Below are positions 1,422 to 14,878 of a stretch of 16,249 nt of DNA, one piece after another. The stretch's first letter is position 1. Every line of letters starts with the position of its first letter. This DNA comes from Bacteroidales bacterium UBA4318 (lineage in GTDB: Bacteria > Bacteroidota > Bacteroidia > Bacteroidales > UBA932). The notes beneath the pieces were generated by a model. That model was given only the letters and a program-made list of their open reading frames with translations. It made no database searches and had not been told where the DNA came from. The stretch spans positions 1 to 16,249 of the forward strand of contig DGUE01000017.1 of assembly GCA_002393895.1 (NCBI GenBank), written 5' to 3'. The position numbers and the translations under genes were made by a program.

Positions 1422-4373
1422 ATGAAACATACTTTTTTGCTGACCGTTACGGCAGTGTCGTTGCTTTTTTCTTTTTCTGTGCGCGCGGGCGCGCAGGAGA
1501 ATGAAAAGTCCTTTCAGGATGCTGTAAACCTCTATCAGAATGGGGCTTACGAGAGAGCGCGTGCTATTTTTGAGGAGCTTGGGGACCCTATGTCCAGCGC
1601 CTATGCCGTTCTCTGTGCCATCAAAGGGGAAGACGATGACTACGCCCGTGTCTTCTGGGAGTATAACGACAAGTATCCCGAAACCGTCCTCGGCAACAGG
1701 ATACGTTACGAATATGCCGGGAAACTTTTCGCAAAGGAAGATTACGCCGGAGCGGCCAATATGCTCCAGCAGGTCAGTGAGACCAGGCTGGATCCTGCCG
1801 ACCTGCTGAACTATAATTTCCGCCGTGGCTACTGTGCCTACGCGAACGGCAGGTATGACGAAGCCATAACCTATCTCTACAAGGTTGAAGCTGCTCCAAA
1901 GAGCAGTCTCACCAACCCTGCCCGCTATCACCTTGGATACATTGCCTACAACGGCGGGCAGTTCGATGTTGCAGAAAAATGGTTCAGGCTCATAGAGCAG
2001 GACGAAAGATTCCAGGCCATAGCGAGCTACTACATTCTCGAGTGCCGCTTCATGAAGAAGGACTACGACTACATTGTGGAGAATGGCCCGGCGATGCTGG
2101 AGCAGGCCCCCGAGGAGCGCAAGGTCCGTCTTGCGAGGATAATCTCCGAGTCTTTCCTGGTTAAGGGAGACAAGAATAAGGCGCTTGCGTACTACATGAT
2201 GGAGGGCGAGAAGGACATTCAGTCCCGTTCAGACCTTTACCATGCCGGTTCCGTGCTCTACGCAGTGCAGGACTACAAGGGTGCCATCGAGAAGTTTTCG
2301 AAGATGGAGAACAGGATAGATTCCCTCGGGCAGGTTGCAAACTATCAGCTTGCATACTCCTACATCCGCACCGGCAACAAGGTGGCTGCTTCGGATTCTT
2401 TCCGGGATGCTTCCCAGGCGGGGTATGACCCCCGTATCCAGGAAGATGCCTGGTTCAATTATGCCAAGCTCGCCTTCGACCTGAACAACGACATGTCCGT
2501 GTTCGGGGGATACCTGCAGCAGTACCCGCAGACCACCCGCAGGGAACAGATCTATAATTACCTGGCTATTGCCGCCCTGAACGCCAAGGATTACTCCGCT
2601 GCCATCGAGGCCTATTCCAACATCGAAGAGCTTACTGAGGAGCAGCTCGGCAACTACCTGAAAGCCAATTATCTGCGTGCAAGCCAGCTGGCTTCATCAG
2701 GGGCATGGACAGATGCCGTGGCCTATTTCCGTTCGGCTGCTTTCAACCTTCCCAAGAACGACAGGTACGCCCAGCTTTCCCGCTACTGGCTGGCGGAATC
2801 CCTTTTCAACAGCGGGGATTATGCCTCGGCAGCAGAAGTTTACGAAGACCTTTACAACATCTCGGCGCTCTACAACCGGAGTGAGGGCAAGATGCTCACC
2901 TACAACATCGGTTACGCCAATTATAACCAGGGGAAATACGAAACTGCTGCCCGCTGGCTGGACCAGTATATCAATTCCGCAGATCCCGTCGGCCGCAAGG
3001 ATGCCCTTGTCCGCCGTGCGGATTGCGACTTCGCCCGGCACAACTACAAGGCAGCCATCACCTCTTACAAGAGGGTGCTGGACACCTACTACGATGTAAA
3101 CGACATCTATCCTTACTACCAGCAGGCCCTTGCATATGGCCTTTCCGGAAACAAGAAAGAGAAAGTGAACGTGCTTTCGCGGGTGGCCACTGCATCTGCA
3201 GATGCCCCCATGTATTCGGAAGCCATGTACGAACTGGGGCGTGCCTATATGGAAACGGATAACAACCAGATGGCGGTGAGCACTTTCGGGAAGCTCCAGA
3301 CTACCACATCGGATAACACCTATGCCGCCCGCGCCCTGATCGGCCGGGGCATGGCCCACCGCAATATGAAAGAGTATGCGAAGGCTGTGGAGGATTACAA
3401 GCAGGTGGTAGACCTTCTGCCCCAGAGTGAATTTGCCGAGGAGGCACTCATGGCCATCAACTCCATCTACCAGACCACAAACGAGCCCGAGAAGTTCCTG
3501 GAATACATGCAGTCCCGCAACATAACCGTGGGCAAGACTCCCAAGGAGCGCGAGACCATCTACTTCAATACTGCTGAGCAGATTTACCTTTCCGGTGGAT
3601 TCGACCGTGCCGTGACTTCTTTCCAGAAATACCTTCAGGACTATCCTGACGGAGAAAAGAGGGGAGATGCGTGGTTCTATCTTGCCGATTCCTATCGTGC
3701 CCTTTCCGAGAAGGAAAAGGCCTGTTCGGCATACAAACTTGCTTTCGATGAGCTCAAGGAAGGGTCTTTCGCGGAAACGGCGGCCTACAACTATGCCAAG
3801 CTTTCCTTCGAGATGCAACACTATTCCGATGCATACGAAGGCTTCTGTGCCTTGCTGGATATGGCCAAGATGGAAGAGAACCGTGCTGCTGCCAGACTGG
3901 GAAAGATGCGCTCCGCATATCAGGGGCACAGTTATGAAGATGCCATTGCCGCAGCACGCGACATCATCTCCAACAGCCCCACGGCCGCAGAGCAGCGGGA
4001 GGGCTGGTTTGTGGAGGCCAAGTCGCTGCTTGCCACGAGCCATCGCGACGAGGCATATATGTTCTTCCGCAAGCTGGCAGAGCAGCCTTCCACTCCCGAG
4101 GGGGCCGAGTCTTATTACATGATAGTACGCGACCTTTGTGATTCCGGCGAATTCATCAAGCTGGAAGACAAGGTGTACGAGTTCGCATCTAAGTGCGGGG
4201 ACCAGACCTACTGGCTCGCTAAGTGCTACATCGTCCTGGGAGACGGCTTCCGTGAGCAGGGAAAGCTCGCCCAGGCACGTGCCACCTGGGAGAGCATCAG
4301 GGATGGATACACCGCTTATGGCGAAGGCGATGATGTTTTGGAATCTGTTAACCAGAGAATTGCCGCATTATGA
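1422..4373 (+). CDS. Secreted TPR-repeat protein (983 aa)
   Basis: An exported protein made almost wholly of tetratricopeptide-type helical repeats, probably a periplasmic or outer-membrane-associated scaffold. Residues 1-24 form a signal peptide (basic start, hydrophobic LLTVTAVSLLFSFSV, likely cut after AGA). From there to the C-terminus repeats recur roughly every 34-40 residues, for example NLYQNGAYERARAIFEELG near the start, and AWFYLADSYRALSEKEKACS in the last third. No enzymatic motif was seen. Its stop overlaps the start of the next gene as ATGA, so it is translationally coupled to an outer-membrane beta-barrel protein; the two may act together at the outer membrane. Similar TPR proteins are often annotated in Bacteroidales without a known function. 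The family is clear; the function is not known. Confidence 0.88.
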   Translation: MKHTFLLTVTAVSLLFSFSVRAGAQENEKSFQDAVNLYQNGAYERARAIFEELGDPMSSAYAVLCAIKGEDDDYARVFWEYNDKYPETVLGNRIRYEYAGKLFAKEDYAGAANMLQQVSETRLDPADLLNYNFRRGYCAYANGRYDEAITYLYKVEAAPKSSLTNPARYHLGYIAYNGGQFDVAEKWFRLIEQDERFQAIASYYILECRFMKKDYDYIVENGPAMLEQAPEERKVRLARIISESFLVKGDKNKALAYYMMEGEKDIQSRSDLYHAGSVLYAVQDYKGAIEKFSKMENRIDSLGQVANYQLAYSYIRTGNKVAASDSFRDASQAGYDPRIQEDAWFNYAKLAFDLNNDMSVFGGYLQQYPQTTRREQIYNYLAIAALNAKDYSAAIEAYSNIEELTEEQLGNYLKANYLRASQLASSGAWTDAVAYFRSAAFNLPKNDRYAQLSRYWLAESLFNSGDYASAAEVYEDLYNISALYNRSEGKMLTYNIGYANYNQGKYETAARWLDQYINSADPVGRKDALVRRADCDFARHNYKAAITSYKRVLDTYYDVNDIYPYYQQALAYGLSGNKKEKVNVLSRVATASADAPMYSEAMYELGRAYMETDNNQMAVSTFGKLQTTTSDNTYAARALIGRGMAHRNMKEYAKAVEDYKQVVDLLPQSEFAEEALMAINSIYQTTNEPEKFLEYMQSRNITVGKTPKERETIYFNTAEQIYLSGGFDRAVTSFQKYLQDYPDGEKRGDAWFYLADSYRALSEKEKACSAYKLAFDELKEGSFAETAAYNYAKLSFEMQHYSDAYEGFCALLDMAKMEENRAAARLGKMRSAYQGHSYEDAIAAARDIISNSPTAAEQREGWFVEAKSLLATSHRDEAYMFFRKLAEQPSTPEGAESYYMIVRDLCDSGEFIKLEDKVYEFASKCGDQTYWLAKCYIVLGDGFREQGKLAQARATWESIRDGYTAYGEGDDVLESVNQRIAAL

Positions 4374-5959
4374 GAAAATCGATATATACGCTGATTGCTG
4401 CTGCGTTCGTTTACGCAGTGCCTGCTTTCTCACAGAACCTGAACCCTCAGGTGCAGGTTACCAACGATTATAAGGCCGAGATGGGAACGTCTGCCAAGCA
4501 GTCTGTTCCTCTGGAGATCCCGGATTCCCTTACGAGTTTCCGCACATCGGTAAGCTACGACGTGTTCTCCACGCCCTATAAGGGATCTTATGAATTCGTG
4601 CCCTACGAGATAAGTGTCACACCCCAGAAACCCGCTTCGGATTACAGCAGGTTTTATCTGAAGGCCGGGGCCGGTTACACGCTCCGTCCTGAGCTTCAGT
4701 TTGTATGGACTCCCATACGCCAGCTGTCCGGGAATACCCTGTCGGTTTTTAACAACTTTAGCGGGTATGCCGGAAACTACAGCACGCTGGATCCCCGTCA
4801 GGATTACTCCGGATATGATTTCGGCGAGAACTTTGGCGTGGAAGGGCGTTATTTTGCCCGTAGTTTTGCACTTAGCTATGGCTTGAACTATAATGGTATC
4901 TTTACTTCCGACTTCGCCCTCAACGGCATTTTCAACGATTTTGCCTTGAATGGAAGGATACGCTCTGACGCAGATGCCAAGCTCGTTTATGATTTTGCCC
5001 TTGAAGCAGGGCAGTCTTTCGATGCCCAGGTATCCCAGACTTCGGTCAAGGCTCAGGGAGGTTTTTTCCCAAACTGGATGCTCCCGTTCGACCTGAGGGT
5101 GGATTTCAATATTGAAGCCGATATCTATGAAAACGGTGGATTTGACAACGTCTTCGTTGCACAGATATCCCCCAAGGCCCTTTTCGACTGGGATCCCGTC
5201 CGCCTCAGCGCCGGGGTTACCCTCAGTCCCGCCAGTGACATCCAGTGGTTGTATCCGGATGTGATGATTACAGCCGATCTGCTGGATAATACCCTTCAGG
5301 CCTATGCCTTTGCAAAGGGAGGACAGTTCTCCAGGAGCTACGCAGACCTCAAGAAGGAAGATCATTGGTTTGGCCCCTCCTATACAAATGTGCTGCGTCC
5401 AACACTTGAGCGTTTGAATGCGGCGCTTGGCGCAAGGGGAAGCGTATTCAAGTATCTGCAGTTCGATGTCCGCGGCGGTTGGGCTTCATACTCGGACGCT
5501 CCCATGCGCAGTTTCGCAGTGAGTGCCCCTGGTGCTGCCTTGATGGATTGCGGAATCAGGTATGCAGATTACAACACATGGTATGCAGATGCGGACATAC
5601 ATTGGAAATCTCCCCGTTTCGCCATGGACCTCGGCGTCCGTTATAAGTATACCAATATAGTGGCGAATATCAACTATCTGGATCTTCCTGCTTTGACCGG
5701 TTCTGCCCGGGCAGTTTACAACTGGAATTCCAGAATCTTTGCAGGAATCAGCTGCAACGCCCGCACTGAGCAGAAATCCTTGTCCCTTCCGGTTCCCGGA
5801 TTTGTGGATCTGGGCCTCGTGGGTGAGTACCGTTTCAACAGCCGCTTGGGCGCCTGGGCCAATGTGGGCAATCTCCTTAATGGGGATATAATCCTTTCGC
5901 CCCTGCATGTGCAGAGGGGCATCTACTGCACTGCAGGAATCAGTTTGAATATGAGATAA
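4370..5959 (+). CDS. Outer-membrane beta-barrel protein
   Basis: A 529-residue exported protein. Residues 1-21 are a signal peptide (LIAAAFVYAVPAFS, likely cut before QNLNP). After a soluble-looking segment to about residue 95, the rest shows many alternating polar/hydrophobic strands rich in Y, F, G and N, such as FYLKAGAGYTLRPELQFVWT and FALSYGLNYNGIF, ending in GISLNMR. This pattern is that of a transmembrane beta-barrel resembling the barrel part of TonB-dependent receptors, but with no plug domain or TonB box that I can see. It shares an ATGA overlap with the TPR gene and lies 34 bases before gyrB. Substrate and role are not recognisable; it could be a transport or assembly pore working with the TPR protein. 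Confidence 0.8.
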   Translation: MRKSIYTLIAAAFVYAVPAFSQNLNPQVQVTNDYKAEMGTSAKQSVPLEIPDSLTSFRTSVSYDVFSTPYKGSYEFVPYEISVTPQKPASDYSRFYLKAGAGYTLRPELQFVWTPIRQLSGNTLSVFNNFSGYAGNYSTLDPRQDYSGYDFGENFGVEGRYFARSFALSYGLNYNGIFTSDFALNGIFNDFALNGRIRSDADAKLVYDFALEAGQSFDAQVSQTSVKAQGGFFPNWMLPFDLRVDFNIEADIYENGGFDNVFVAQISPKALFDWDPVRLSAGVTLSPASDIQWLYPDVMITADLLDNTLQAYAFAKGGQFSRSYADLKKEDHWFGPSYTNVLRPTLERLNAALGARGSVFKYLQFDVRGGWASYSDAPMRSFAVSAPGAALMDCGIRYADYNTWYADADIHWKSPRFAMDLGVRYKYTNIVANINYLDLPALTGSARAVYNWNSRIFAGISCNARTEQKSLSLPVPGFVDLGLVGEYRFNSRLGAWANVGNLLNGDIILSPLHVQRGIYCTAGISLNMR

Positions 5960-5963
5960 TTAG

Positions 5964-8009
<2,046 letters not shown>

Positions 8010-8022
8010 ACCAAAAAACACT

Positions 8023-9285
8023 ATGTTAGACATTTTCGATCGCATTGCACGTGATTCCGGAGGCCCTATCGGCCAGTATTTCGAACAGGGCTTCGGCTAC
8101 TATATGTATCCCCGCCTCGAGGGTGAACTCGGCCCTCACATGATCTTCAACGGCATTCCGGTGCTGAACTGGAGTCTCAACAACTACCTCGGGCTCGCAA
8201 ACCATCCCGAGGTGCGCAAGGCTGATGCACAAGGTGCCGCCGACTGGGGTCTGGCTTATCCAATGGGCGCCCGCATGATGTCGGGGCATACCCGCTATCA
8301 TGAGAAACTTGAGAAGGTTCTCGCCGATTTCGAAAAGAAGGAGGATGCCTTCCTCTTCAACTTCGGTTACCAGGGAATAGTATCTACTATCGATGCCCTG
8401 CTTGCACGCCACGACGTGGTTGTGTACGACGCAGAGTGCCATGCATGCCTTCTGGACGGCATACGCCTCCACATTGGCAGCAAGTATAAATATCGTCACA
8501 ACAACATGGCCGATTGCGACAAGGTGCTCACACGTGCATGCGCAGAGGCCGAAGAAAATGGCGGCGGCGTGCTGCTCATTACCGAAGGCGTTTATGGAAT
8601 GACCGGCGCTCTTGGCAAACTGGATGAGATTGTCGCCCTCAAGAAGAAACACAATTTCCGCATTCTCATCGACGACGCCCACGGCTTCGGCCTCCTTGGC
8701 GAACACGGACGCGGAACCTCCGAGCATTTCGGTGTGATGGACGGGATCGACCTTTACATCGGCGCATTCGCAAAGAGCATGGCAAGTATAGGCGGATTCG
8801 TGGCCGGGCCTCACTACATCATCAACTACCTCCGCGCAAATATGCGCAGCCAGATGTATGCAAAGAGTCTCCCCATGCCTCTCGTGATAGGCAACCTGAA
8901 GCGTATGGAGATCATCGATTCCCCTGAGGGAGACGAACTCCGCAAGAAGTGCTGGGCCATCACCCATGCCATCCAGGACGGCTTCAAGAAGGAAGGATTC
9001 GATATCGGCGAAGCCGAAGCATGCGTTACTCCCGTTCATATCAAGGGCGGCATCGCCCAGGCAACCAAGATGGCGAAGGACCTGCGCGAGAACTATAAGA
9101 TCTTCTGCTCTATGGTCATCTATCCTGTTATCCCCAAGGGCATGATCATCTTCCGTATTGTCTGCACCGCAGCCCATACCATGGAAGATGTGGAATACAC
9201 TCTCAACGCCTTCAAGGAAATCAAGGCAAAGCTCGACGCCGGTCTTTACGACGGCGACGACATTGCCGCAATGACCGTTAAATAA
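8023..9285 (+). CDS. PLP-dependent alpha-oxoamine synthase, probable long-chain-base synthase
   Basis: A 420-residue enzyme of the alpha-oxoamine synthase family (AONS, Kbl, ALAS, serine palmitoyltransferase), which condenses an amino acid with an acyl thioester and releases CO2. Visible PLP residues are the ring-stacking H140 (AECHACLLDG), D217 and H220 (DDAHGFG), and the Schiff-base lysine K251 (FAKSMASIGGF), the last segment being closest to serine palmitoyltransferases. The usual G/S-rich substrate loop is replaced by YPMGARMMSGHTRYHEKLE, which distinguishes it from AONS and Kbl. I recall a clade with this loop in Bacteroidota and suspect it is the cysteate fatty-acyl transferase that starts capnine/sulfonolipid synthesis, but serine palmitoyltransferase remains possible. 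The ATG at 8023 is chosen; an in-frame extension to 7942 would lie inside gyrB. The next gene is an SDR, fitting the reductase step. Confidence 0.75.
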   Translation: MLDIFDRIARDSGGPIGQYFEQGFGYYMYPRLEGELGPHMIFNGIPVLNWSLNNYLGLANHPEVRKADAQGAADWGLAYPMGARMMSGHTRYHEKLEKVLADFEKKEDAFLFNFGYQGIVSTIDALLARHDVVVYDAECHACLLDGIRLHIGSKYKYRHNNMADCDKVLTRACAEAEENGGGVLLITEGVYGMTGALGKLDEIVALKKKHNFRILIDDAHGFGLLGEHGRGTSEHFGVMDGIDLYIGAFAKSMASIGGFVAGPHYIINYLRANMRSQMYAKSLPMPLVIGNLKRMEIIDSPEGDELRKKCWAITHAIQDGFKKEGFDIGEAEACVTPVHIKGGIAQATKMAKDLRENYKIFCSMVIYPVIPKGMIIFRIVCTAAHTMEDVEYTLNAFKEIKAKLDAGLYDGDDIAAMTVK

Positions 9286-9299
9286 TCATCATTCGTTAA

Positions 9300-9330
9300 A
9301 CTGTCATTCCGAACGAAGTGAAGGAATCTG
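9300..9330. repeat. Possible dispersed REP-like repeat at the SDR start
   Basis: The bases from 9302 to 9329 closely resemble a dispersed motif that I recall from many bacterial genomes (core CATTCCGAGCGAAGCGAGG), which produces spurious HSERSEE-type translations. Here ATTCC (9306-9310) can pair with GGAAT (9323-9327), and AC (9313-9314) with GT (9318-9319) around a GAA loop, where the usual form has GC/GC. It fills the AOS-SDR gap and covers the presumed GTG start. Only one copy lies in this window, so repeat status rests on resemblance. Confidence 0.45.
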
Positions 9331-10139
9331 TATATTTCAAAGACAAAGTGATAGTCGTCACCGGAGCCAGCTCGGGCATAGGGCTGGCTTCGGCACGGCT
9401 TTTCGGCAGCCTGGGCGCAAAGGTCGTGATGGCCGCCCGCAGGCTGGATAAACTGGAAGAACTGGCTTCTTCTGTGGCTCCCTCCGAGCGTGTCCTGTGC
9501 GTTAAGTGCGACGTGTCTTCAGAAGAGGACTGCAAGGCCATGGTCGATGCTGCGGTGGAGCGCTTCGGCGGGATAGACATCCTTGTGAATAATGCAGGCC
9601 TGTCCATGCGTGCCATGTTCAAAGACCTGGACCTCAAGGTGATACATTCCCTTATGGATGTGAACTTCTGGGGCACGGTGAACTGCACCAAGTACGCATT
9701 GCCGTATCTCCTGGAGCGCAAGGGGCAGGTGGTGGGAGTCATCAGCATTGCCGGCTATTCGGCATTGCCGGCCCGCACCGGGTACTCATCCTCAAAGTAT
9801 GCAATCCGCGGATTCCTGGATACTCTTCGCATCGAGCATCTGAAGGACGGCCTAGGAGTTCTGGTGTTCGCGCCTGGATATACTTCGTCCAATGTCCGCA
9901 ATGCCGCCCTCACCGCAGATGGCTCTGCGCAGGGGGAAACACCCTTGGATGAAGGAAAGTTGATGAGTGCCGAGGAGTGCGCAAAGCATCTTGCAAGGGC
10001 TCTTGCAAAGCGCAGGTCGCAGTGCATACTCACCGGCCTCGGCAAAGCTACGGTTTGGGCACACAGGCTCTTCCCTCGCCTTACCGACAAACTCACATAT
10101 AAGTACATAGCTAGAGAAGCCAACAGCCCCTTCAAATGA
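9318..10139 (+). CDS. Short-chain dehydrogenase, probable 3-ketosphinganine/3-ketocapnine reductase
   Basis: A 273-residue classical SDR. The cofactor loop TGASSGIG is at 15-22, NNAG at 91-94, and the catalytic triad is S143, Y156 and K160 (YSSSK). The double arginine R41-R42 after the second beta-strand suggests NADPH rather than NADH. The extended C-terminus (LGKATVWAHRLFPRL) resembles membrane-associated DHRS7/KDSR-like reductases more than FabG. Its position directly after an alpha-oxoamine synthase suggests that it reduces the 3-keto product of that enzyme. The start is a GTG at 9318, since an in-frame stop at 9297 and the absence of ATG rule out a longer form; this GTG lies within a repeat-like hairpin, so a start at the GTG at 9348 is conceivable but would cut into the first beta-strand. 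The stop overlaps the next gene as ATGA. Confidence 0.8.
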   Translation: MKESVYFKDKVIVVTGASSGIGLASARLFGSLGAKVVMAARRLDKLEELASSVAPSERVLCVKCDVSSEEDCKAMVDAAVERFGGIDILVNNAGLSMRAMFKDLDLKVIHSLMDVNFWGTVNCTKYALPYLLERKGQVVGVISIAGYSALPARTGYSSSKYAIRGFLDTLRIEHLKDGLGVLVFAPGYTSSNVRNAALTADGSAQGETPLDEGKLMSAEECAKHLARALAKRRSQCILTGLGKATVWAHRLFPRLTDKLTYKYIAREANSPFK

Positions 10140-12160
10140 AAAAGTTCATTCCACTTTTCCTGGTGTTCGTCGTAATCCTGCTTGTGCTGCCTCGCAGCGC
10201 AAAGCTCAGTTACGATTACCGCAAAGGTGCTCCATGGAAATATGAAACCCTGATTGCACGCTTCGATTTTCCCATTCTGAAGTCGGAAGACGAAATGATG
10301 GAAGAGCGCAGGCTTGCCGCGGGGCAGCAGGTGCCTTATTATAAGTATCTGGACGATGTTGTGACCCGCAGTATCCGTGCGGTGGAAACCGCTGATATGG
10401 GGGATTACTCCTTTCTCCGCCCTTCCATGGTGGAATCGCTCAAGGAGATTTATGAAAGGGGAGTGGTGGGTGACGACGGTATCTCCAGCCCTTCCGACAT
10501 TATCTATGTCCAGAAGGATAAGCGCGCATCGGCCAGGCCTGTTTCGGAGGTGGCCCGCATGGCTGAGGCCAGGGCTTACTTCCGCTCGTCGCTTGCATCT
10601 CAATGGCCGGATGTGAATGTGGATTCTGTATTCAACAGCATTTCTGCGGCCGAGATGGTTGTGCCGGACCTCGTGTACGACCGCCAGGTAAGCGAACAGA
10701 TGAATTCCGACGCGAGCATGTCGGTGTCTCCGACATCCGGATATGTCAGTGCCGGACAGCTGATAGTGTCTGAAGGAGAGATAGTTACTGCTGAAATTGC
10801 TCAGATGATCGCTTCCTATGAGAAAGAATTCGATGCCAATATGGGATCGAGTTCCGGGGGCGTCCTGTTCTGGCTTGGAAATGCAATAGTTGCTCTGATG
10901 CTGGTGGTATTCCTCTATTTCGCCATCCGTCTTGTCAACCCTACCATCTTCTCCGACTATGGCAAGTACTTCTACCTGGCACTCGTGTTTACGGTGTTTG
11001 CAGTCCTGTCCATTGTCATCCCCCGCACCCATCCGGACTATCTCTGTGCCATTCCTTTCGTGCTGTGCGCGCTGCTGCTGGAGGCATTCTTCGACGACCG
11101 GCTCGTGGTCATGACATATATGCTGGCCCTGCTGCCTCTGCTATTTTATGCTGAGGGGGGAAGGGCCATATTCCCCATGTTCCTTGCTGGAGGGGTTGTT
11201 TCCATGCTCACATTCAAGTATTTCAACCGTGGCTGGAGGCAGTTCCTGAATGCTTTCATCACATTCGCTGTGATGTTCGTCGTATTCTTGGGATTCCGAT
11301 TGACCGACCTTGCCAGCGGAAACATCCTCAGAATGGCCTGGATGCTGCTTATCTCTGCGTTCCTTTGCGTTGCTGGATATCCCCTGAGTTATCTCTTCGA
11401 AAAGATATTCAACCTCGTGTCGGTTTACAGGCTGCGTGAGCTTTGCGATACGTCCGGCCCCATCCTGCGCGAGCTTGAGCAAAAGGCTCCCGGAACCTTC
11501 CAGCATTCCCTGCAGGTCATGAACATGGTAGATGCTGTTGCCGGAGCGATTGGCGCAGATGTGCAGCTTGTGCGTGCCGGTGCCCTCTATCACGACATAG
11601 GCAAGATGCTCAACCCCATGTGTTTTGTGGAGAACGAATCCATGCTACTTGCAGATGGCGTCAGGCGCTATCATGATGGCCTTTCTCCCCAGCAGAGTGC
11701 AAGAGACATAATAAAACACATCACCGACGGTGACGAGATCGCCCAGAGGCATCGCCTGCCCATGCAGATACGCACATTCATCCTCTCACATCACGGCACA
11801 TCGGTAGTGAGTTACTTCTACGACCGCTTCCTCAAAGGCGGCGGTTCCCCTGCCGAAATTGGGGAGTTTACATACCCGGGCATCAAGCCAGTATCGCGGG
11901 AGCAGTGCATACTCATGCTGTGCGACAGTGTGGAGGCTGCATCCCGTTCGCTGAAGGAGTATACCCCGGAAGCATTTGACACCTTCGTTGAGAACATAGT
12001 TGCCGGAAAGATGGAAGAGGGGCAGTTCTCGGAGGCGGAGATCAGTGTCAAGGACCTTGGCATAGTCAAGGCATCACTTAAGAATTATCTCGCCCAGATG
12101 TATCATGGGCGCATAGAATATCCGAAACATAAGAATAAATTAATAGGTTTACTGAAATGA
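10136..12160 (+). CDS. 7TM-HD (PgpH-type) cyclic-dinucleotide phosphodiesterase
   Basis: A 674-residue membrane protein of the 7TMR-HD family, whose best-known member, PgpH, hydrolyses c-di-AMP to pApA. Residues 4-20 form a membrane anchor. Residues of about 21-240 are the extracytoplasmic 7TMR-HDED region. Seven hydrophobic segments lie between about 243 and 412 (LFWLGNAIVALMLVVFLYF is the first). The cytoplasmic HD domain follows with metal ligands H457, H486-D487 (YHDIGK), H528, H552-H553 (SHHGT) and D597 (MLCDSVEAA), all intact, so it should be active. It overlaps the SDR and tig genes by ATGA on both sides. A diadenylate cyclase is not in the window. Specificity for c-di-AMP is inferred from the architecture; I do not assign a gene symbol. 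Confidence 0.9.
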   Translation: MKKFIPLFLVFVVILLVLPRSAKLSYDYRKGAPWKYETLIARFDFPILKSEDEMMEERRLAAGQQVPYYKYLDDVVTRSIRAVETADMGDYSFLRPSMVESLKEIYERGVVGDDGISSPSDIIYVQKDKRASARPVSEVARMAEARAYFRSSLASQWPDVNVDSVFNSISAAEMVVPDLVYDRQVSEQMNSDASMSVSPTSGYVSAGQLIVSEGEIVTAEIAQMIASYEKEFDANMGSSSGGVLFWLGNAIVALMLVVFLYFAIRLVNPTIFSDYGKYFYLALVFTVFAVLSIVIPRTHPDYLCAIPFVLCALLLEAFFDDRLVVMTYMLALLPLLFYAEGGRAIFPMFLAGGVVSMLTFKYFNRGWRQFLNAFITFAVMFVVFLGFRLTDLASGNILRMAWMLLISAFLCVAGYPLSYLFEKIFNLVSVYRLRELCDTSGPILRELEQKAPGTFQHSLQVMNMVDAVAGAIGADVQLVRAGALYHDIGKMLNPMCFVENESMLLADGVRRYHDGLSPQQSARDIIKHITDGDEIAQRHRLPMQIRTFILSHHGTSVVSYFYDRFLKGGGSPAEIGEFTYPGIKPVSREQCILMLCDSVEAASRSLKEYTPEAFDTFVENIVAGKMEEGQFSEAEISVKDLGIVKASLKNYLAQMYHGRIEYPKHKNKLIGLLK

Positions 12161-13149
12161 AATTAGAAAAAAAGCAGATCGATGCTTTGAACATCGAACT
12201 TACCCTGAACATCGAGCAGGGGGACTATGCAGAGATTGAACGCAAGAAACTCGCCCAGCGCCGCAAGACCGCAGACTTCAAGGGATTCCGTAAGGGAATG
12301 GTGCCCGAAAGCCTGGTGCGCCGCGTGTATGGCGACCAGATTCTTGCCGAGTCCGTGAACGAAGTGATTTCGAAAGGGCTTCAGGATTTTATCGATGAGA
12401 ATAAGCTGAATGTGCTCGGAGAGCCTCTCGGAAGCGAGAATCAGCCCGAGGTTGAGTGGAAGGACGGAAACGACTTCACTTTCGTGTTCGACATCGCCAC
12501 ATATCCTGAATTCGAAGTTTCTGCCGGCAAGGAGGATACCGTTAACAAGTATACCATCAGCGCCACCGCGAAGGAAAAGGCAGACATGCTGAAGAACCTC
12601 AAGAAGTACTATGAGGACAAGAAGGAAGAGAAGACTGATGAGGATATAGAGAAGGAACTCGAGGAGCGTCTGACCAGCGAGTATGCCCAGCAGGCAGAAT
12701 GGAGGCTTACCAAAGATATCCGTGACTATTTCGTAGAGAAGACCAAATTCGATCTTCCCGAAGCCTTTATGAAGCGCTGGCTCTTCGAGGCCAATGGCGG
12801 TAAGGTTAGCAAGGAAGATATCGAGAAAGATTTCGAAGGATTCCTCGCCGACTTCCGCTGGCAGCTTGTACGCGGCGCCTTCATGCGTAAGTATGAGTTC
12901 AAGGTCGAACAGAAGGACATCCAGGATGCAGCCGTGGGTTATGTACACTATCAGTATGCAATGTATGGTATGCCCAATGTTCCCGAGGAAATCGTAAAGG
13001 AAGCCGTTCAGAACATGATGGGCGACCGCAAGCAGATCGACCGCCTCGTGGAGCAGGTGGAAGACAACAAGGTCCTCGGTAAACTCAAGGAAGAGATCAC
13101 CATCAAGGCCAAGAAGATCACTTCCGAGAAATTCCGCGAACTCAAATAG
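12157..13149 (+). CDS. tig: Trigger factor lacking the PPIase domain
   Basis: Ribosome-associated chaperone that shields nascent chains at the exit tunnel. The ribosome-docking signature GFRKGMVP is at 43-50, exactly where it lies in E. coli Tig, within an N-terminal domain reaching about residue 115. The following strand (VFDIATYPEFEV) and linker run directly into the helical C-terminal arm (EDIEKELEERLTSEYAQQ onward). At 330 residues it is about 100 shorter than E. coli Tig (432), and the missing part matches the FKBP-type peptidyl-prolyl isomerase insert, which would sit near residues 150-165. The sequence at that junction is a lysine/glutamate-rich helix. It overlaps the HD gene by ATGA and is 2 bases upstream of clpP, the conserved tig-clpP-clpX order. 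Confidence 0.93.
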   Translation: MKLEKKQIDALNIELTLNIEQGDYAEIERKKLAQRRKTADFKGFRKGMVPESLVRRVYGDQILAESVNEVISKGLQDFIDENKLNVLGEPLGSENQPEVEWKDGNDFTFVFDIATYPEFEVSAGKEDTVNKYTISATAKEKADMLKNLKKYYEDKKEEKTDEDIEKELEERLTSEYAQQAEWRLTKDIRDYFVEKTKFDLPEAFMKRWLFEANGGKVSKEDIEKDFEGFLADFRWQLVRGAFMRKYEFKVEQKDIQDAAVGYVHYQYAMYGMPNVPEEIVKEAVQNMMGDRKQIDRLVEQVEDNKVLGKLKEEITIKAKKITSEKFRELK

Positions 13150-13151
13150 TC

Positions 13152-13823
13152 ATGTCCGATTTCGAGAAATTCGCAAAGTCCGAACTGGGTGTGGGGTCCA
13201 TGACCCTGCACCGCTATGGTTCGGCCATGGATTCTTACATCAACCCTACCATCATCGAAGAGCGTAAGCTGAACGTGGCATCGATGGATGTGTTCAGCCG
13301 CCTGATGATGGACCGTATCATCTTCCTGGGTGTTCCCATCGACGATGATGTGGCCAATATCGTGCAGGCGCAGCTGCTCTTCCTGGCTTCATCTACTGAC
13401 AGCAATGCCGATATCACCCTCTACCTGAATACTCCCGGCGGAAGCGTTTCTGCGGGGCTTGGAATCTATGATACCATGCAGTTGGTTGAGCCCGATATCG
13501 CTACTGTGTGCACCGGGATGGCCGCCTCTATGGGCAGCGTGCTGCTCTGTGCAGGCACAAAGGGCAAGCGTTCCGCGCTTCCGCACAGCCGTGTGCTGAT
13601 CCATCAGCCTCTCGGCGGTGCCCGGGGGCAGGCATCCGACATCCTAATTGCCGCCAAGGAGATAGAGAAGATGCGGGATGAGCTTTGCAAGATTATCGCC
13701 GAGCACTCCGGCCAGCCTTTCAAGAAGGTGTTCGCAGATGCCGACAGGGACTATTGGATGAATGCAGAGGAGGCCCTTGCCTATGGAATGGTAGACAAGA
13801 TTCTCCGTAAAAAGAAGAAGTGA
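13152..13823 (+). CDS. clpP: ATP-dependent Clp protease proteolytic subunit
   Basis: Serine peptidase that forms the tetradecameric chamber fed by ClpX. The catalytic triad is S126 (GMAASMGS), H151 (IHQPLGG) and D200 (RDYWM), with the spacing of 25 and 49 residues seen in E. coli ClpP. The 223-residue length includes an N-terminal extension of about 30 residues ending in [20 protein letters not shown], which is characteristic of Bacteroidales ClpP. Mature processing is possible but not shown. The start ATG is 2 bases after the tig stop, and the TGA stop overlaps the clpX ATG by one base, so chaperone, protease and unfoldase are made from one message. Confidence 0.97.
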
Positions 13824-14878
13824 TGGCGGAAAAAGAAGCAAGAATCCCTAAACCTAAGGAGATCAAGGCCTTCCTGGACCAGTATGTGATTGGTCAGGAC
13901 AGGGCCAAGAAACTACTGTCGGTAGCGGTTTATAATCACTATAAACGCATCATTCACAATGTGGTGGAGAGGCCGGACGATGGAGTGGAGCTGGAGAAAT
14001 CCAACATCCTCCTGATAGGACCTACCGGCACCGGCAAGACCCTGCTTGCCCGGACCATTGCCAAGATGCTGATGGTGCCCTTTGCCATAGTGGATGCGAC
14101 CGTGCTGACCGAGGCCGGCTATGTGGGTGAAGATGTAGAGAGCCTGCTGGTGCGTCTGCTCCAGGACGCCGATTACGACCAGGCGCAGGCCGAGATGGGT
14201 ATAGTGTTTATCGACGAGATAGACAAGATCTCCCGCAAGAGCGACAATCCTTCCATTACCCGCGACGTGTCCGGGGAGGGCGTGCAGCAGGGGCTGCTGA
14301 AACTGCTGGAGGGGAGTGTGGTTAACGTTCCTCCGGCCGGCGGACGCAAGCATCCCGAGCAGGAATTCATACATTTCAACACCCAGAACGTGCTCTTCAT
14401 CTGCGGCGGCGCATTCGAAGGCATAGACCGTGTTATCGCCCAGCGCCTGAATACCCGTGTGATAGGTTTCGGCTCCGATGAGAAACAGAAAGTCGACAAG
14501 GACAACCTTCTCAGCTATGTGGAGGCACAAGACATCCGTAAATACGGCCTGATTCCCGAAATCGTTGGGCGTCTCCCTGTGTTGATGAGCCTGGATAATC
14601 TGGACCGCAAGGCCCTCAAACGCATCCTGACCGAACCGAAGAATGCAATTCTGCGCCAGTACGAAAAGCTGTTCGAGATAGACGGTATCAAACTCGAAAT
14701 CGAGCCAGAAGTCCTGGATATAATCGTGGATACGGCTATCAAAGATAAACTGGGCGCCCGCGGCCTTCGCGCTATCTGCGAACGTATAATGAACGACGCA
14801 ATGTACGAAGCGCCGTCCTCGCGGAAGAAGACATTCAAATTGACTGCTGAATATGCAAAAGAAAAGCTCGGGGCCTAG
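13823..14878 (+). CDS. clpX: ClpX AAA+ unfoldase without the zinc-binding domain
   Basis: Hexameric unfoldase that delivers substrates to ClpP. The AAA+ core is complete: Walker A GPTGTGKT (66-73), pore loop GYVG (99-102), Walker B IVFIDE (127-132), RKH loop (175-177), ClpP-docking IGF (214-216) and sensor-2 GARGLR (311-316). The protein starts at [18 protein letters not shown] almost immediately, where usual ClpX first has about 60 residues with a four-cysteine zinc-binding domain; no CxxC is present here. Total length is 351 against about 410-425 normally. The ATG at 13823 overlaps the clpP stop (TGATG); a GTG one codon upstream is also in frame. Upstream DNA is clpP coding, so the domain is not hidden by a wrong start. 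The last codons lie in the terminator hairpin. Confidence 0.96.

Follow-up and report, generated by a model that had tools for sequence, protein, structure and literature searches.

A probable cysteate acyltransferase and adjacent reductase as proposed consecutive steps of sulfonolipid base synthesis in an uncultured Bacteroidales lineage

Which lipid base would be made by two enzymes whose genes stand side by side in the genome of an uncultured bacterium? The window analyzed here, the whole 16,249-nucleotide stretch of contig DGUE01000017.1 from Bacteroidales bacterium UBA4318 (assembly GCA_002393895.1), encodes an alpha-oxoamine synthase (AOS) followed after 32 bases (9286-9317) by a short-chain dehydrogenase/reductase (SDR), here called SDR-A. 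An earlier note on this DNA had described the two open reading frames, the AOS motifs FAKSMASIGGF and YPMGARMMSG, and the spacing as we find them, and had proposed a condensing enzyme and a reductase for either a sulfonolipid or a sphingoid base. Our analysis supports the sulfonolipid side of this proposal: the AOS falls among the cysteate fatty-acyl transferases (CFATs) and keeps Lys281, cysteate synthase is encoded in all 24 related genomes tested, and many of these genomes encode a separate serine palmitoyltransferase (SPT) with an SDR of its own. We consider it highly probable that the AOS and SDR-A act one after the other in making the sulfonolipid base, the AOS as a CFAT and SDR-A as its 3-ketocapnine reductase. 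Statements about related loci concern the best 80 of 423 stretches encoding an AOS relative. Statements about genomes concern relatives of the window's host: 24 genomes chosen among those in which the 80 loci lie, and a draw of 294 from the order to which the closest relative, G001, belongs.

In the proposed pathway, the AOS, as a pyridoxal phosphate (PLP) enzyme, would join L-cysteate to a long-chain acyl thioester, probably acyl-acyl carrier protein (acyl-ACP), and CO2 would be lost to give 3-ketocapnine. SDR-A, an NADPH-type enzyme, would reduce the ketone to capnine, and an N-acyltransferase encoded elsewhere would turn capnine into sulfonolipid. The cysteate would be supplied by an archaeal-type cysteate synthase whose gene lies elsewhere in the genome. 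Sphingolipid bases, where made, would be the product of a distinct SPT, in many cases paired with a reductase resembling 3-ketodihydrosphingosine reductase (KDSR). The proposed pair would represent the first lipid-specific steps toward sulfonolipids.

Family and active site of the proposed condensing enzyme

The best two of 54 matched PDB sequences for the AOS were 7u7h (586 bits) and 28eh, a cysteate-C-fatty acyltransferase (534 bits), and the third best was the SPT 3a2b (207 bits); identity over the aligned parts was 62% (408 residues), 57%, and 31%, respectively. PDB 7u7h is SulA of Alistipes finegoldii (alfi_1224), described as a cysteate acyl-ACP transferase (PMC9304779). When 57 proteins were placed in a tree, the AOS fell inside a 41-row clade that holds both 7u7h and 28eh (support 100/100), and SPT (96/89), Kbl (100/99), and BioF lay apart from it; some branches of this tree are long, that of BioF above all. 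The AOS can therefore be assigned by its sequence to the CFAT/SulA/CapB clade, apart from SPT, Kbl, and BioF. The earlier note had left this placement to a tree, and no grouping with 8-amino-7-oxononanoate synthase, Kbl, or SPT was found. The AOS reached the cut-off of none of the NCBIfam models listed, and a scan of viral contigs with the AOS found no relatives on them.

Residues are given here in SulA numbering, and counts refer to 201 sequences (the 80 loci, 120 database proteins, and the query). Lys251 acts as the PLP lysine according to work on SulA, in which residue 281 separates SulA (Lys) from SPT (Ala) (PMC9304779); both lysines are present in the AOS and conserved among its relatives (Table 1). 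Of the PLP-site residues of SulA, Lys251, Asn53, His140, Asp217, His220, and Arg376 (query residue 378) are kept, and Thr248 is replaced by Ala. The substrate loop, which had been called unusual, proved to be the opposite, since YPMG.RM..G is a CFAT signature: PMG[AS]RM[ML] was found in 31/31 CFAT-type rows and 0/11 SPT rows, and both CFAT structures read PMGARMMSG.

Two positions depart from SulA. Position 248 is Ala, which is also found in 14/14 nearest relatives (66-73% identity) and in 3/15 farther CFATs, and position 255, in the AOS segment FAKSMASIGGF, is Ser in 199/201 sequences, as in SPT, and Gly in SulA and 28eh. The window AOS therefore does not simply duplicate SulA.

The reductase and its conserved position

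The best model for SDR-A was NF004825 (PRK06181), at 297 bits against a cut-off of 215. SDR-A carries the motifs TGASSGIG, NNAG, and YSSSK, together with Arg residues after the second strand. An Arg at this place in an SDR is a rule for NADPH use, which suggests that SDR-A uses NADPH. Membership in the KDSR model family was not supported for SDR-A, which had been credited with a KDSR-like tail: the KDSR model NF049977 (cut-off 400) lay outside the 25 best of 226 models, the 25th of which scored 118.5 bits, and we rejected this model family for SDR-A. None of the 60 listed of 633 PDB matches, all of them various SDRs, is named a ketocapnine or ketosphinganine reductase, and no named Alistipes relative appeared among the 120 listed of 8000 profile-search matches.

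The position of the two genes is conserved. In 79/80 loci, gyrB lies directly upstream of the AOS gene, the remaining locus having no room for it, and SDR-A lies directly downstream in 74 of the 79 loci with room (L005 has none). The other five (L037, L044, L052, L063, and L068) pass from the AOS directly to the HD gene with no SDR between. The gyrB-AOS-SDR gene order is thus more than chance. In 32 of the 74 loci with SDR-A, an ATG is found 0-3 bases past the AOS stop, a spacing that reads as the pattern of coupled translation. The pair may also be co-transcribed: a promoter/terminator scan of the window saw no terminator-like site on the + strand between 5900 and 11156, which does not by itself prove co-transcription, and its promoter-like matches touch both AOS-flanking spacers (7999-8027 and 9257-9286).

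The pair lies, as the earlier note had it, between gyrB and an HD phosphodiesterase-type gene, the former identified by its TIGR01059 match and the latter by its 7TM-HD domains. The further suggestion that this arrangement ties lipid synthesis to core-gene expression is read from the conserved gene order only. The whole + strand run comprises a tetratricopeptide repeat (TPR) protein, a protein without a model match, gyrB, the AOS, SDR-A, the 7TM-HD protein, a trigger-factor-like protein, clpP, and clpX. The 7TM-HD gene, whose start overlaps the SDR-A stop by 4 bases, encodes what we take, by domain content, to be a PgpH-type cyclic di-AMP phosphodiesterase. The trigger-factor-like protein (12157-13149) is short, at 330 amino acids (aa), with 125.8 bits against a tig cut-off of 180.2 and the N-terminal Pfam domain only. 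Model matches to the ClpX-type protein (13820-14878, 352 aa) begin at position 54 or 62, and the usual N-terminal part of ClpX seems to be missing from it.

The GTG start and first codons of SDR-A lie within a 25-base element that is presumably an interspersed repeat (Table 1). With one R position allowed, three of 144 loci contain the element, namely L001, L002, and L081, the last from the same genome as L001; in L001 and L002 it sits in the same AOS-SDR spacer, and the spacer of L032 resembles a variant of it in another frame.

Table 1. Coordinates of the features discussed (all in the window; residue counts as defined in the text)
Feature	Position	Strand	Remarks
TPR protein	1422-4373	+	
Protein without any model match	4370-5959	+	
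gyrB, conserved upstream neighbor	5994..8009	+	TIGR01059, 923.1 bits (cut-off 882.4)
AOS, CFAT/SulA/CapB clade by sequence, 420 aa	8023..9285	+	ATG 8023, stop 9285
Ala248 codon (SulA Thr248, PLP-phosphate ligand)	8764..8766	+	A in 201/201
Lys251 codon, predicted PLP Schiff-base lysine	8773..8775	+	aligned to SulA Lys251; K in 201/201
Lys281 codon	8863..8865	+	K in 199/199 sequences with a letter there, of 201
25-base repeat-like element holding the SDR-A GTG start and first codons	9304..9328	+	single copy in window
SDR-A, classical SDR (PRK06181), proposed 3-ketocapnine reductase	9318..10139	+	GTG 9318, stop 10139; NF004825
7TM-HD phosphohydrolase, downstream neighbor	10136..12160	+	PF01966, PF07698, PF07697 (7TM-7TMR_HD and 7TMR-HDED domains)

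The best contig matches to the AOS were Bacteroidales metagenome-assembled genomes, the top one (L001, 98% identity over the AOS) from goat omasum. Among the 80 kept loci is one named Candidatus Cryptobacteroides caccocaballi, and rumen, omasum, or faeces is the source of many of the rest.

Cysteate supply, SPT, and co-occurrence across the order

A cysteate acyltransferase needs a source of cysteate, and a homologue of archaeal cysteate synthase is carried by Alistipes and Odoribacter according to a review (PMC10191378). The cysteate synthase model TIGR03844 was passed in 24/24 related genomes (412-442 bits, cut-off 324.9) and in 1/14 control genomes, that of Methanosarcina acetivorans. The same 24 genomes were searched with the SPT model NF047600, which matched three sets of proteins: (i) a separate protein at 605-670 bits in 16/24 genomes, 2 of these above the cut-off of 640, (ii) a protein at 317-331 bits in 22, and (iii) the window-type AOS at 266-285 bits in 24/24. 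A G001 protein that represents the second set reached 669 bits with TIGR01822, the model for Kbl (cut-off 493). Since separate SPT and Kbl proteins are encoded in these relatives, the window-type AOS is neither SPT nor Kbl there.

The separate SPT is often accompanied by a different reductase. An SDR lies directly downstream of SPT in 11/16 loci (L125-L131, L165, L166, L167, and L169) and is lacking there in the other five (L123, L124, L132, L168, and L170). Two of these SPT-linked SDRs were scanned, and the best model for both was NF049977 (301 and 289 bits, below its cut-off). In a tree of 35 SDRs, in which long branches meet, SDR-A and its orthologues (97/97) were separate from the SPT-linked group (100/99). 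Across the order, NF049977 matches lie at most 400 bases downstream of SPT in 20 of the 26 genomes that have one, and SPT is present in 24 of these 26. In one genome, G220, the pair of CFAT and SDR-A occurs together with that of SPT and a KDSR-like SDR.

The order-wide counts come from one draw of 294 genomes, and the Fisher tests on them ignore ancestry. CFAT was found in 213 genomes (E 1e-90), SDR-A in 149, with one match each (E 1e-50), TIGR03844 in 84 (E 1e-60; 83 above cut-off), SPT in 104 (E 1e-150; 93 above cut-off), and NF049977 in 26 (E 1e-75; 1 above cut-off). CFAT was present in 141 of the 149 SDR-A carriers (p 4e-19), and of the 84 genomes with cysteate synthase, 75 carried SDR-A (p 3e-18) and 81 carried CFAT. 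Within the CFAT genomes, SDR-A occurred in 73/81 with cysteate synthase and 68/132 without. SPT was negatively associated both with SDR-A (odds ratio 0.41, p 0.0004) and with CFAT (odds ratio 0.13). SDR-A was accordingly found in 105/165 genomes with CFAT and no SPT and in 2/56 with SPT and no CFAT; it was present in 36/48 genomes with both and 6/25 with neither.

Adjacency is confined to a narrower group. Among 30 genomes with a fetched stretch (flanks of at most 1.5 kb, some cut by contig ends), SDR-A adjoins CFAT in 6, namely G001 and five near relatives; beyond these, the link between SDR-A and CFAT is one of co-occurrence, not adjacency. TIGR03844 was found in 5/5 near relatives with SDR-A adjacency versus 2/9 near relatives without it (p 0.02). 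The surroundings of 29 SDR-A loci from across the order have no further family in common in more than 8 loci, save SDR-A itself and frames over SDR-A or across the AOS.

Seven near CFAT relatives (L084, L086, L089-L092, and L094; 67-72% identity) have neither TIGR03844 nor SDR-A. In their AOS, Ser83 is found in 7/7 and Ala282 in 6/7, compared with 2/7 and 0/7 near relatives that have TIGR03844. This pattern may reflect a change of substrate or cysteate supplied from outside.

The cysteate synthase gene has recurrent neighbors of its own. A Na/Ca-exchanger gene adjoins it in 11/12 loci (L111-L122, not L117), with a TRAM-domain RNA methyltransferase gene beside the exchanger gene in 9/12, and a related locus in this context is L138 (6913-10557). 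Near cysteate synthase there is also a 376-379 aa protein, joined in some genomes by a weakly PlsB-like one (L138 4538-5677; L139 8830-9960; L140 3291-4418; L144 376-1503 and 6659-7810). Of the 376-379 aa protein, one member scanned with Pfam and two scanned with NCBIfam gave no match, and by eye it is like GNAT-type acyltransferases. Either could be a candidate for the capnine N-acyltransferase.

Alternative readings and known systems

Several observations weigh against the proposed pair. Thr248, the PLP-phosphate ligand in SulA, is absent from the window's lineage. The three ketocapnine reductases each of A. finegoldii and C. gleum are described as not next to cfat (PMC11211663). Five close relatives that keep CFAT without an adjacent SDR-A have none genome-wide, their best matches being 31-35% identical. 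At the thresholds given above, 72/213 CFAT genomes lack SDR-A, 8/149 SDR-A genomes lack CFAT, and 132/213 CFAT genomes lack TIGR03844. An ancestry-aware pair test on 37 rows left 6 and 3 usable pairs, too few for significance. Finally, 23 of the 26 genomes with an NF049977 match also carry CFAT, and because KDSR-like matches occur in CFAT genomes as well, the exclusivity of the reductases rests on gene order.

Four other readings of the pair were weighed. The AOS might be a CFAT and SDR-A a general or unrelated reductase that merely lies beside it in a housekeeping run, a reading that may hold jointly with the next two. The published ketocapnine reductases, unlinked to CFAT (PMC11211663), fit this reading, as does the absence of SDR-A from the five close relatives and from about a third of the CFAT genomes, but SDR-A tracks CFAT and cysteate synthase order-wide, even in genomes in which they are not neighbors, and is nearly missing from genomes with SPT only. 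In addition, a weaker full-length PRK06181 match, SDR-D (184-221 bits), is present in 4 of the 5 genomes without SDR-A (G006, G309, G319, and G320; the fifth, G318, has no match reaching E 1e-40) versus 3/22 with SDR-A (Fisher p 0.009, ancestry ignored). We regard an unrelated SDR as unlikely. The CFAT assignment could also be right for the clade and wrong for the substrate, this sublineage using another amino acid. The changes Thr248Ala and Gly255Ser, the fixation of Ala248, and the Ser83 and Ala282 of the half of the 14 nearest relatives that lack TIGR03844 would agree with such a shift; cysteate synthase in all 24 genomes tested of the window's own group, the retention of Lys281, and the occurrence of Ala248 in some farther CFATs argue against it, and we think it distinctly improbable.

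That the AOS is an SPT and SDR-A its 3-ketosphinganine reductase, the pair making sphingoid bases, is less probable still. The AOS does belong to the SPT superfamily and shares Ser255 with SPT; however, it scores 276.8 bits against the NF047600 cut-off of 640, lies outside the SPT clade, and has Lys281 where SPT has Ala, so that an SPT identity was rejected, and most of the related genomes have a separate SPT, usually with its own SDR downstream. A biotin (BioF) or threonine-degradation (Kbl) enzyme could be suggested by the NCBIfam matches of the AOS, which include the models for glycine C-acetyltransferase and BioF. These scores, at 287.5 of 460 and 267.3 of 426.45 bits, fall far short of the cut-offs, the AOS is separate from both families in the tree, and the closest relative has a Kbl of its own; we rejected this identity and give the reading practically no credence.

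In G309, which lacks SDR-A, the gene that directly follows cysteate synthase encodes a FabG-like SDR (L176 4827-6898). The same SDR type is also present without cysteate synthase in stretches from G319, G002, G001, and G006.

We therefore retain the CFAT and 3-ketocapnine reductase reading of the pair. For a broader version we have only a slight preference: in much of the order SDR-A would serve physiologically as a 3-ketocapnine reductase dedicated to this step, many Cryptobacteroides-type cells would run parallel CFAT plus SDR-A and SPT plus KDSR-like modules, and the group would be an unrecognized source of sulfonolipids. From the locus, an uncultured lineage of gut and rumen, kin of Candidatus Cryptobacteroides, is predicted to make sulfonolipids; one open library held no publication that we found linking Cryptobacteroides with sulfonolipid. 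The question of which of many SDRs is the physiological 3-ketocapnine reductase narrows to one candidate gene, since SDR-A has linkage, co-occurrence, and a difference from the reductase linked to SPT. Both enzymes belong to known kinds; what we did not find in print, in the same library, is the linked pair, a reductase family contrasting with the SPT-linked one, and the uncultured host group.

Among known systems, SulA of A. finegoldii is like the window AOS in Lys251 and Lys281 under the same numbering, in the PMGARMMSG loop, and in Asn53, His140, Asp217, and His220; it differs in Thr248 and Gly255, where the AOS has Ala and Ser. The 28eh enzyme belongs to the same clade and shares the signature residues, with Thr248 and Gly255 as in SulA. 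SPT (3a2b; NF047600) shares the superfamily, the PLP-site residues, and Ser255 with the AOS, whereas it has Ala at 281, a loop without the PM insertion, and a separate clade. On the reductase side, 3-ketodihydrosphingosine reductase (NF049977; BT_0972 by function) resembles SDR-A in its SDR superfamily and in an analogous ketone reduction, but SDR-A is of another family, and the SDRs that fit NF049977 best adjoin SPT. The reductase step of the sulfonolipid route, which the earlier note had considered less well defined, has published activities: AF_KCR1-3 of A. finegoldii, CG_KCR1/7/9 of C. gleum, and CapC are 3-ketocapnine reductases, SDR-type and related to 3-KDSR, for which the candidates came from activity screens (PMC11211663). 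Compared by description, these enzymes catalyze the reaction that we propose for SDR-A; the kcr genes of A. finegoldii are reported as not clustered with cfat (PMC11211663), whereas in the window the AOS gene stands directly before that of the SDR.

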